A stretch of 64,000 nucleotides of DNA from assembly GCA_030849465.1 (NCBI GenBank), contig JARVLF010000022.1, positions 434,001-498,000 on the forward strand, given 5' to 3'. This document shows, piece after piece, positions 7,941 through 11,825 of this stretch. Each line of letters opens with the position of its first letter. Within the stretch, counting starts at the first letter, position 1. A program made the translations under genes and the position numbers. The notes beneath the pieces are model-generated. The model did no database searches. It saw only the letters and a program-made list of their open reading frames with translations, and had not been told where the DNA came from. The stretch comes from Moesziomyces globuligerus. Taxonomy: Eukaryota; Basidiomycota; Ustilaginomycetes; Ustilaginales; Ustilaginaceae.

Positions 7941-8229
7941 TTGCAAAGTACGAAACCTATGAACCCTATAAACCCTGTGAACCCTATGAGTCCTATGAAC
8001 CCTATGAGTCCTATGAGTCCTATGAGACATCTAAGACCTGTGAGATCTATGGGATCTATGAGAGCTATGAGAGCTATGAGAGCTATGAGAGCTATGAGAG
8101 CTATGAGAGCTATGAGAGCTATGAGAGCTATGAGAGCTATGAGATCTATGAGATCTATGGGATCTATGAGAGCTATGAGAGCTATGAGAGCTATGAGAGC
8201 TAAGGGAGCTAAGGGAGCTAAGGGAGCTA
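7941..8229. repeat. 9-bp minisatellite array (ATGAGAGCT units)
   Basis: The array begins with degenerate units (ATGAACCCT, ATGAGTCCT at about 7957-8026). It continues with near-perfect ATGAGAGCT copies from about 8059 to 8200, interrupted by ATGAGATCT and ATGGGATCT variants, and ends with four AAGGGAGCT units at about 8201-8229. The period is 9 bp throughout. It fills the convergent spacer between the orphan mitochondrial gene and the LipA fusion gene and overlaps the stop codon of the latter. All units stay open on the + strand, giving a spurious Met-Arg-Ala repeat ORF. Confidence 0.9.
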
Positions 8230-10584
8230 AGGGTGAGGGGGGAGTTGTTGGAGGGAGACATTATGCGCGGGGGATGAGTTTGCTTTTCGTTGTTTGAGGA
8301 CGTTTTGGATGAAGAACTCTCCGGCCTTGTAGCTTGATCTGACCAAGGGACCGGAAGCGACATAGAGAAAACCCAACTGTTGAGCTCTGTTTTGCCAGTG
8401 TTGGAACATTTCGGGTTTGACGTAGTCGTGGACCTTCATGTGACGCTTGGTCGGACGCATGTACTGTCCAAACGTCACCACATCCACCTCCGCTTCCCTC
8501 AAATCCCTAAGCGTTTGTTCCACCTCCCCATCCTGCTCTCCACAACCCAACATGATGGATGTCTTGGTAATCAGGTCGGGCTTGACCATCTTGGCATGAC
8601 GAAGCACCGCCAGACTTTGCCTATACTTCGCCCTCCGATCTCGAACCGCAGGAGTTGTACGTTCAACAGTCTCCACGTTGTGCGCAAAGACATCCAACCC
8701 CGACGTCGCAACCTGTCGAATACACGACTCGTCCCCACTAAAATCAGGCACGAGAGCCTCGACCAAGATCTTGGGCGACTTGTGTTTGATCTTGCTGATC
8801 GTACTCGCAATATGCGCTGCACCCCCATCCACCAAATCATCCCGATCCACCGAAGTCAACACGATATACCCCAAACCCCAGCGCGAGATCGCTTCGGCCG
8901 TGTTCTCGGGTTCGTGAGGATCCAACGGCGCAGGAGCACGCGAAGTCTTGACGGCACAAAATCGACAGCCGCGCGTACACGTATCGCCCATGATCATAAT
9001 CGTCGCCGTCGCCGTATCCTTACCACCCGACCCACCCCAGCACTCGCCGATATTCGGACATCGCGCCTCCTCGCATACGGTCGACAATCCCAACCCACGC
9101 AGGTCCGACTTGATGCGCGTGTAGTTGGCGCCCGTGGGGATCTTGGTCTTGAGATGCTTGGGCAACCTCGCTTCGCCCACGCGGCCCATCTGAACACGAC
9201 CGCCCGAGGCGCTCGAGGCGAGGATCGAATCCACCTCGCCCGCTGCAAAGTCATCGATCGACAGATCCGCCGCGAGCTTCTGCCTAAACGCGGCCATGCG
9301 CGCCGAAGGCACCTTGGCCTCCCCTGCGGGCTTGTCGCTCGCATCCGTCGCATACGTCCTCACGCCCACCGAGCCCGCAGCAGCAGCAGGCGGTGGCGAG
9401 ACGCGCGGACGCGAAGCACCCGCCAGACCGCGCGTGCGCGGCGTGAGGTGCGCCGTATTCACCGTCGGCGGGCCCCACTCGGCATAGTGATCGCGCTGAG
9501 CCGCCTTGCTCAGACCGAGACGTCCGCGCCAGCGTGGCCAGTGGACGAGACGCTCGCGCAGATCGTCGAGGTCATGCACCGAGCTCGCCGGCGCGAGCGC
9601 CGCGCGCAGCACGAGCTTGGCGTCGGTGCTGCGCAGGTTGCCGTACCAGTCGCCGTGCGGATAGACGAGCGCGTTGGCCGCCCACGCGTGGCCGCCCACG
9701 TGGCTCACCGCAAAGACGCGCACGTTCTTGGGCGTCTGCTTGCCCGCAGCGATGGCGCCGGCCTGGTGCGCGCGCACCTCGTCCTTGAGCGCCTGGAGCA
9801 CCGCGGTGCCTGCGACGCCGCAGCGGCAGTCTCGTGCGCCGTGCGTGCAGACGTAGACGTGCGTCTCGTCGTCGGCCTTGGGTCGCCCGGTCTGCGGCTG
9901 TGCGGCGGCGAGCGCCTCGTCGACGCGCTGGCGGAAGGCACCGCCTTGGTCGAGCGTCTTGAGCGAGACGGGGCCGAGCTTGGCCATGGTGCCGTTGGTG
10001 GTGTAGGCGTAGACGAGGAAGCGCTCGTCCTCCTGCGCCGAGTTGGGCACGGCGCGCATCATGCGCGACGTGGTCGGATCCCACTGCTTGAGCGGCGTGG
10101 CTGCGGCCTCAGTCGAGGCGGTGTTGCGAGGCTCGCCGGAGGAGAACGAGATGCCGTATCCCTCGAGGCTGGCGCCCTTTTTGGTGCGGCTCTCGAGCTC
10201 CGAGAGAAGAGGCGAGACGGACTCGAGATGCGAGGGCCAGGTGTCGTCGGATCGAGGCTGGTCGAACGGGTGGACGACGAGGTGGACGTTGTAGGAGGGC
10301 GAGGTGCCTGCGAGTGGCAAATGCGAGTAGGGTGCTGCGGGGATGTTGCCGTTGTCGTCGAGGGCCATCGCGAGGTCCTGGCCCGAGACGGATGTGTTGG
10401 CGTGCGCACGTGCGGTGGCGGAGAAGAGCCTCGCCGACGAGGCGGTCGCAGGCGCAGCGGCGACGAAAAGCCGGGCGGCAGGCCGAGCCGAGAGGGAGTG
10501 GGAGGCAATGGTGGCGGTGGCCCGCGAGCGCGCCAGACGCGGGGCCGCGGCTCGCAGCGAGGCAGAAGACGCCCAGCAGCTCAT
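8227..10584 (-). CDS. LIP5: Lipoyl synthase fused to an Apd1/sucrase-ferredoxin-like [2Fe-2S] domain
   Basis: One 785-residue ORF joins two proteins. Residues 1-60 are an Arg/Ser/Ala presequence ending [11 protein letters not shown]. Residues about 80-370 form an Apd1/Aim32-type thioredoxin-like ferredoxin domain with CxC (Cys253, Cys255) and HVGGH (His295, His299), the ligand set of the bis-histidinyl [2Fe-2S] cluster described for yeast Apd1. A second presequence-like stretch (around Arg409, RTYATDAS) precedes a complete lipoyl synthase. That part has the auxiliary-cluster cysteines 504, 509 and 515, the radical-SAM CxxxCxxC (536, 540, 543), and the RSSY motif (749-752). Lipoyl synthase inserts two sulfurs into octanoyl groups of mitochondrial dehydrogenases and glycine cleavage H protein. 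The start was chosen at the ATG that opens the presequence. The stop lies at the edge of the minisatellite. Confidence 0.92.
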
Positions 10585-11081: not shown

Positions 11082-11825
11082 TTAGCTGGACGCGACAAAC
11101 GAGTGTCCGAGTTTGAGCTGTTGCTCGAGGCGGCGGATCTCTTCGAGGCTCTGGCTGTTTTCGATCGCCTCTTCGATCGCCTGTCTCTCCTCGGGCGTAA
11201 GCAGGCGACGCGTGGATCCGTTGATCCTGCCCGGTTCGAACGTACGCTGCTTGACCACACCCACCGATGCGTCTACCTCGATGTTGCTCGTTGTTTGCAG
11301 GATGCTGGCTGCGAGCTTGGTCGGCGAGCCATCGTCGTCCTGCATGAGCTGGGTGGCGAGCTGACGCTCCTGCTGGCGGATGCGCTGGTAGTCGAGCACG
11401 CGCACCTGGGGCAGCTTCCAGATGACAAACTCGCGGTAGTGCGCATGCCTGCTGACCGGGTTGCCCATCAGACACAGCAACTCGAGGCGTGCGCACTTGG
11501 CCAGCGGCAGAAGATCGGCGAGCTCGGCGATCGCGTTGTTCGTCAGCGTCAACGAGCGAAGTGCGGGCAAGGACGAGGAAAGACGCGGGTCGATGCGGGA
11601 TATCAAGTTGTTGCCCAGCTGCACATGCTTGAGCTGCTGCAGCAGCGGCAAGTTGCCGAGGAAGCGCACGTCGTTGTCCGTCAGGTCGATCGCATCGTTC
11701 TGGTCGCGCGTCACGCCCAGGTTCTCGATCGCGGCGATCTTGAGCCCGCGCAGATCCAGCTCCCGGTCCTGCAGCGCGTTGATCGACGTCCGACTCCGCG
11801 CGATCAGCTCCGGCGTCAGCTTCAT
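11082..11825 (-). CDS. LEA1: U2 small nuclear ribonucleoprotein A' (LEA1)
   Basis: U2A' pairs with U2B'' and binds stem-loop IV of U2 snRNA in the spliceosome. The 247-residue protein begins MKLTPELIARS, as in the family. It then shows leucine-rich repeats (LDLRGLKIAAIENLG, IDLTDNDVRFLGNLP, VQLGNNLISRI, LTLTNNAIAELADL). The typical LRR cap with LLCLMGNPV and YREFVIWKLPQVRVLDYQ follows. Length is normal (human 255). The C-terminal part holds the usual charged helix. Single exon; the ATG at 11825 gives the conserved N-terminus. Confidence 0.95.
   Translation of the reverse strand: MKLTPELIARSRTSINALQDRELDLRGLKIAAIENLGVTRDQNDAIDLTDNDVRFLGNLPLLQQLKHVQLGNNLISRIDPRLSSSLPALRSLTLTNNAIAELADLLPLAKCARLELLCLMGNPVSRHAHYREFVIWKLPQVRVLDYQRIRQQERQLATQLMQDDDGSPTKLAASILQTTSNIEVDASVGVVKQRTFEPGRINGSTRRLLTPEERQAIEEAIENSQSLEEIRRLEQQLKLGHSFVASS

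Follow-up and report, generated by a model that had tools for sequence, protein, structure and literature searches.

The tandem precursor Arg5,6 of yeast is cut internally by MPP, and Etp1 and Rsm22-Cox11 of fission yeast have similar internal signals, according to the available portions of one source (PMC8847149), which also describe an Icp55-type motif, RX(F/Y/I/L)↓(S/A), seen in MPP-processed presequences. For the thioredoxin-like ferredoxins (TLFs), the accessible text of another source gives the ligand motif C-X8-C-X24-75-HXGGH (PMC11138216). Yeast Aim32 is processed by MPP, is located partly in the matrix and depends on its terminal tryptophan; general redox functions and the degradation of allelochemicals are the roles proposed for it in the sections available to us (PMC8482512). 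A redox potential of Apd1/Aim32 was looked for and not found in the portions of the literature consulted.

In this study, we analyzed an open reading frame (ORF) that joins a TLF module to lipoyl synthase (LipA) in a 64,000-nucleotide stretch of Moesziomyces globuligerus DNA (the window). The first-pass annotation knew of no described enzyme of this build, and we likewise found no TLF-LipA fusion described in the title or abstract start of the papers that the literature searches listed, in most cases a part of those matched; mention elsewhere is possible, and subscription papers were mostly outside the scope. The three-domain architecture itself is already present in public records, where it goes by 'Lipoyl synthase, mitochondrial' or 'related to LIP5'. 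Considering the sequence, structure models and analogy together, we think it probable that the fused gene encodes a composite mitochondrial precursor, predicted to be cut by MPP/Icp55 into TLF and LipA.

Results

Fused Open Reading Frame

The frame reads from 10584 to 8227 on the minus strand, and its 785 codons are uninterrupted in the DNA, as the first-pass annotation had stated without giving the strand. Its parts, in window coordinates, are as follows.

8227..10584, minus strand: fused ORF, TLF - linker - LipA, 785 codons plus stop (Pfam, 20 records of the same build, alignment)
10402..10584, minus strand: N-terminal presequence-like stretch, residues 1-61 (rich in R, A and S; pLDDT <50 throughout)
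10420..10431, minus strand: candidate N-terminal cleavage motif R-L-F-S, residues 52-55 (from the sequence and the Icp55 motif in the available text of PMC8847149)
9469..10317, minus strand: TLF (Suc_Fer-like) module, residues 90-372
9820..9849, minus strand: C-X8-C ligand pair, C246 and C255 (20/21 fusions; stretch absent in P0016)
9688..9702, minus strand: HVGGH ligand pair, H295 and H299 (invariant in the alignment of fusions)
9313..9468, minus strand: variable disordered linker, residues 373-424 (pLDDT <50 at 373-396 and 398-424; column counts)
9346..9360, minus strand: predicted conserved internal cleavage motif R-T-Y-A-T, residues 409-413 (motif conservation)
8230..9351, minus strand: predicted mature lipoyl synthase, residues 412-785 (Pfam; Foldseek to human LIAS)
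9040..9075, minus strand: auxiliary [4Fe-4S] cluster motif C504-X4-C509-X5-C515 (21/21 fusions)
8956..8979, minus strand: radical-SAM cluster motif CTRGCRFC, C536/C540/C543 (21/21 fusions)
8329..8340, minus strand: RSSY motif, residues 749-752 (19/21 fusions)

Three Pfam domains exceeded the cut-off: Suc_Fer-like (residues 91-333; 4e-26; 92.6 bits, the cut-off being 34.9), LIAS_N (residues 428-509; 3e-20) and Radical_SAM (residues 530-695; 2e-20). The TLF and LipA domains that the first-pass annotation had read in this frame were thereby borne out. The antisense strand of the ORF is likewise open, for 737 codons, so the long frame alone is weak proof; we accepted it as real because the same build is conserved in 20 of the 120 listed relatives and can be aligned with the window. 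A simple scan of the ORF for GT...branch...AG found no intron across the TLF/LipA junction, and its 14 candidates all lay within the LipA part. Pfam and the alignment of relatives show two complete proteins inside one conserved frame.

The TLF module fits the family motif, with C246-X8-C255-X39-H295VGGH299. C253, C255, H295, H299, RSSY and the other lipoyl synthase motifs listed in the first-pass annotation are all present; of the bis-histidinyl ligand set that it had proposed, the motif, C255, H295 and H299 stood, whereas C253 gave way to C246 under the family motif in the accessible text of PMC11138216. C253 is common among TLF relatives yet dispensable: among the 109 relatives having both motifs, its position is occupied by Q, A or E in three, two of which are bacterial-looking. 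All 50 matches listed from a fold search with the whole chain were LipA or other radical-SAM entries; the TLF module was therefore modelled separately, and this model has the TLF fold. The LipA part matched human LIAS (8tsk_B; Foldseek E 4.4e-35, identity 66%) and has LIAS_N, Radical_SAM, CX4CX5C, CX3CX2C and RSSY, as expected of a lipoyl synthase. Among the fusions, RSSY was missed in P0020, a truncated model, and in the frame-broken P0021.

The base composition shifts within the gene, GC being 0.70 (GC3 0.88) in the TLF half and 0.55 (GC3 0.65) in the LipA half. A 9-base tandem array, CTATGAGAG, of about 27 copies (window 7984-8229) reaches the stop codon. The neighbouring gene, at 11082-11825, encodes a leucine-rich-repeat protein (PF14580); a similar repeat part is joined to a TLF part, ending at the linker, on the 2396-base contig of P0030, in an order unlike that of the window, and this contig is probably chimeric.

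Distribution and Phylogeny of the Fusion

The first-pass annotation had suggested searching proteomes for proteins with both domains. Relatives of the whole fused protein numbered 1146 matches, and 20 of the 120 listed had all three Pfam domains. Together with the protein of the window these make up the 21 fusions of our alignment, in which P0021 has broken frames and P0016 is missing part of the TLF module. The 20 records cover 11 named fungal species, plus one filed under the plant Cichorium endivia; the latter (P0021) is a frame-broken TLF-LipA fusion near Moesziomyces and probably a contamination. The carriers include Violaceomyces (Violaceomycetales) and Thecaphora (Urocystidales), and we take the other named species to be Ustilaginales. 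LipA proteins with no TLF domain occur in Tilletia and Parajaminaea and, according to an additional search, in Malassezia.

The TLF tree comprised 69 modules, from 52 of the 119 TLF relatives examined and 17 fusions, with a midpoint root. The 17 TLF-LipA rows formed one clade (100/99), nested in a clade of Ustilaginomycotina TLF-ferredoxin proteins (100/100). In the LipA tree (46 rows), the 18 fused rows formed one group with moderate support (84/85; 81% of bootstrap trees), which sits within the Ustilaginomycotina LipA (100/99). From the two trees, both halves look vertically inherited, with one apparent replacement of the ferredoxin by LipA. Within the 18.5-Mb genome, no PF06999 or LIAS_N match was found other than the fused frame. 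No second TLF or TLF-type ferredoxin turned up in six-frame searches, in which intron-split genes can be overlooked, and the Fer2 matches were a Yah1-type ferredoxin and, as identified by eye, xanthine dehydrogenase and a complex I subunit.

In the LipA records, some gene models have probably been merged (e.g., P0077 and P0029), and an assembly or gene model might have joined two genes here too. Against this stand the single uninterrupted frame in the DNA, the 20 listed records sharing the build, its presence also in Violaceomycetales and Urocystidales, and the grouping of fused TLF and fused LipA in each tree; we regard such an artefact as extremely improbable. The assembly error that the first-pass annotation had named as its refuter is excluded by these 20 further records, and the fusion is genuine.

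In three Rhodotorula records (P0085, P0104 and P0105), LipA follows an MT-A70 domain (PF05063), and each has R-x-L-A some 90 residues ahead of the LipA auxiliary motif; a separate R. toruloides LipA model (P0082) starts later. The three records represent a second composite gene or, alternatively, merged gene models.

Linker and Predicted Internal Cleavage Motif

Linker columns were counted over 20 fusions, with the frame-broken P0021 left out. At columns 387-408 and 414-426, 27 of 35 score 11 or less. R409, A412 and T413 are each found in 20/20 and Y411 in 19/20 (the other has F), with position 410 scoring 13; A415 (19/20) and S427 (20/20) are also kept in or near the linker. R-x-[YF]-A-T is present in 20 of the 21 aligned fusions, P0021 being the sole miss, and R-x-[FYL]-A-T occurred in 1% of shuffled segments. 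Unfused LipAs have R-x-[FYL]-A in the same interval before the auxiliary motif in 86 of 97 cases (shuffled, 12%), and in 154 of 196 when a larger set including truncated models is taken (shuffled, 11.5%). The median distance from this motif to the auxiliary motif is 96 residues in the fusions vs. 103 in the unfused LipAs. The stretch upstream of the site holds two to four K/R in each of the 20 fusions, and 16 of them have no acidic residue there. By its conservation and charge, the segment is presequence-like, and its R-T-Y-A fits the Icp55-type motif. The permanently fused enzyme of the first-pass annotation is thus not supported as stated; since the linker keeps an apparent LipA presequence with an MPP/Icp55 motif, the mature TLF and LipA are probably separate.

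An intact bifunctional chain, the idea of the first-pass annotation, in which the TLF cluster supplies the radical-SAM cluster of LipA with electrons or helps to rebuild the auxiliary cluster, would agree with the ligand motifs kept in both modules (C-X8-C in 20/21 and both LipA cluster motifs in 21/21 fusions) and with the ferredoxin that takes LipA's place in many TLF relatives. For the electron-donor role that the first-pass annotation had put forward, these ferredoxin-bearing relatives are indirect support of which it was unaware. It would also agree with the requirement for FDX1 in lipoylation in human cells (PMC10470009) and in LIAS activity in vitro (PMC12855868), as given in the available text of these papers. 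However, the two domains are separated by the conserved, presequence-like cleavage motif, and LipA could be served by the standard Yah1-type ferredoxin that the genome retains. The disordered linker likewise speaks against domain packing, and with a whole-chain pTM of 0.49 no fixed domain arrangement is predicted. We consider the bifunctional chain unlikely.

Two expression units are another explanation, with a second, shorter transcript or an internal start giving LipA alone and the long frame only partly used. P0242, a 416-residue model of 86% identity, starts at a Met inside the linker and retains the site, so LipA may also be made alone in some species; a linker Met occurs in 5 of the 20 fusions, and codon 387 of the window reads CTG, which might act as a weak start (this column holds I in 9, L in 5, G in 3, M in 2 and T in 1 of 20). 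However, in the window the stretch between codons 333 and 430 is free of in-frame ATGs, and 15 of the 20 fusions lack a Met from the end of the TLF up to the site. An ATG start in the linker of the window therefore cannot yield LipA with a presequence, and a start at codon 430, the next in-frame ATG, would leave LipA with no presequence. Scanning ribosomes on the long messenger would have 7 ATGs to get past, counting that of the gene's start, and a separate transcript would therefore be needed for LipA alone. We judge this arrangement to be quite improbable. Going by the frame itself, and barring a non-ATG start, the window LipA plus its presequence can only be obtained from the long frame. 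Of the apparently unfused LipAs in Ustilaginomycetes (P0241, P0242 and P0243), P0241 and P0243 look like truncated models.

Some observations also weigh against the favored composite precursor. R-x-[YF]-A could persist by descent without being cut, though most of the surrounding linker has drifted. Among the nearest unfused LipAs, those of Malassezia mostly have R-x-[LI]-H at the motif (four of the five named proteins shown; the fifth has neither). The freed TLF of the window would end in a linker tail without the terminal tryptophan that, in the accessible text on yeast Aim32, that protein needs.

TLF-Ferredoxin Relatives

A search with the TLF part gave 124 relatives, of which 120 were listed and 119 (P0122-P0240) examined. 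C-X8-C and HxGGH are both present in 109 of the 119, and 57 have a C-terminal adrenodoxin-type ferredoxin motif, C-X5-C-X2-C...CQ, where the fusions have LipA; the remainder include fragments and short Agaricomycetes TLF proteins without a ferredoxin motif. Pfam called Fer2 in 6 of 10 TLF-ferredoxin proteins tested, and the C-terminal module of P0122, which Pfam missed, matches adrenodoxin-type ferredoxins in the PDB. The carriers belong to Exobasidiomycetes, Malassezia, Pucciniomycotina, Tremellomycetes, Ceratobasidiaceae and chytrids. In 36 of the 57 proteins, 47 to 73 residues separate the third from the fourth ferredoxin cysteine; for adrenodoxin-type ferredoxins, the available text of PMC11138216 gives 35-37 residues in this stretch.

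Five Malassezia TLF-ferredoxins (P0132, P0136, P0141, P0148 and P0161) are called 'lipoyl synthase' in NCBI/UniRef. Their precomputed Pfam lists contain no LipA domain, in agreement with our hmmscan of P0132, and the name may stem from TLF-LipA fusions. Caution is needed, as databases apply 'lipoyl synthase' to proteins without a LipA domain.

Discussion

According to the model that we favor, the frame would consist of a presequence, an Aim32-type [2Fe-2S] TLF, and a LipA headed by its own old presequence, which is now internal. The chain would be imported into the matrix, where MPP and then Icp55 would cut two similar sites, one being R-L-F↓S around residue 54 and the other R-T-Y↓A (411/412). 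TLF and a LipA of the ordinary kind would be released as separate proteins. An ancestral C-terminal adrenodoxin-type ferredoxin would have been swapped for LipA once, at or near the base of the Ustilaginomycetes. While the fusion, its conservation, the linker motif, the missing start codon and the differing C-terminal modules of the TLF relatives are read directly from the records, we infer from them the single swap, import, cleavage and independence of the mature proteins.

Human LIAS needs FDX1 and LipA here appears to replace a ferredoxin, which hints that TLF proteins may serve lipoylation. Aim32-type TLFs might tentatively be viewed as lipoylation factors that act together with an adrenodoxin-type ferredoxin, or else with LipA itself, in electron supply or in cluster protection or rebuilding, a possibility to which we give limited credence. 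If so, two fusions would reveal the role, TLF-ferredoxin in many Basidiomycota and some chytrids, and TLF-LipA in Ustilaginomycetes, where the ferredoxin was lost. Six prokaryote TLF loci were available from one contig scan; for two of these, the contig is no longer than 3-4 kb. A LipA profile run against 394 frames from all six found LipA at none, and Pfam recognized no lipoylation gene among 7 frames around one of them (L010); these loci therefore give no support for an old TLF-LipA link. In yeast, lip5 mutants are unable to respire. Aim32 cysteine mutants, like the aim32 deletion, show respiratory growth at 30°C and arrest at 37°C in the available text of PMC8482512. Because aim32 mutants respire at 30°C and lip5 mutants cannot, Aim32 is not a strict requirement for lipoylation in yeast. 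The TLF-LipA fusion in the ferredoxin's place raises a specific question, namely whether loss of Aim32/TLF lowers protein lipoylation.

Several described systems resemble parts of this locus. Arg5,6, Etp1 and Rsm22-Cox11, as portrayed in the accessible text, are like the fused gene of the window in encoding two mitochondrial proteins per frame, led by a presequence and with an internal presequence-like stretch that bears an MPP motif; in contrast, the Arg5,6 type joins other proteins, and cleavage in the window is a prediction. If the prediction holds, a housekeeping enzyme joins the short list of mitochondrial precursors having an internal cleavage signal. Aim32/Apd1 (PF06999) and the window protein have in common the C-X8-C...HxGGH motif and the TLF fold; Aim32 is a mitochondrial, MPP-processed protein, whereas the window TLF is followed by LipA and has no C-terminal tryptophan. 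The TLF-ferredoxin proteins of other Basidiomycota and chytrids (e.g., P0122, P0140 and P0225) have a homologous TLF, with 54% identity in Tilletiaria, but end in an adrenodoxin-type ferredoxin instead of LipA. Mitochondrial lipoyl synthases (human LIAS and yeast LIP5) have the same LIAS_N and Radical_SAM domains, cluster motifs and RSSY; in the window, by comparison, the apparent LipA presequence lies inside a longer chain, behind the TLF module.
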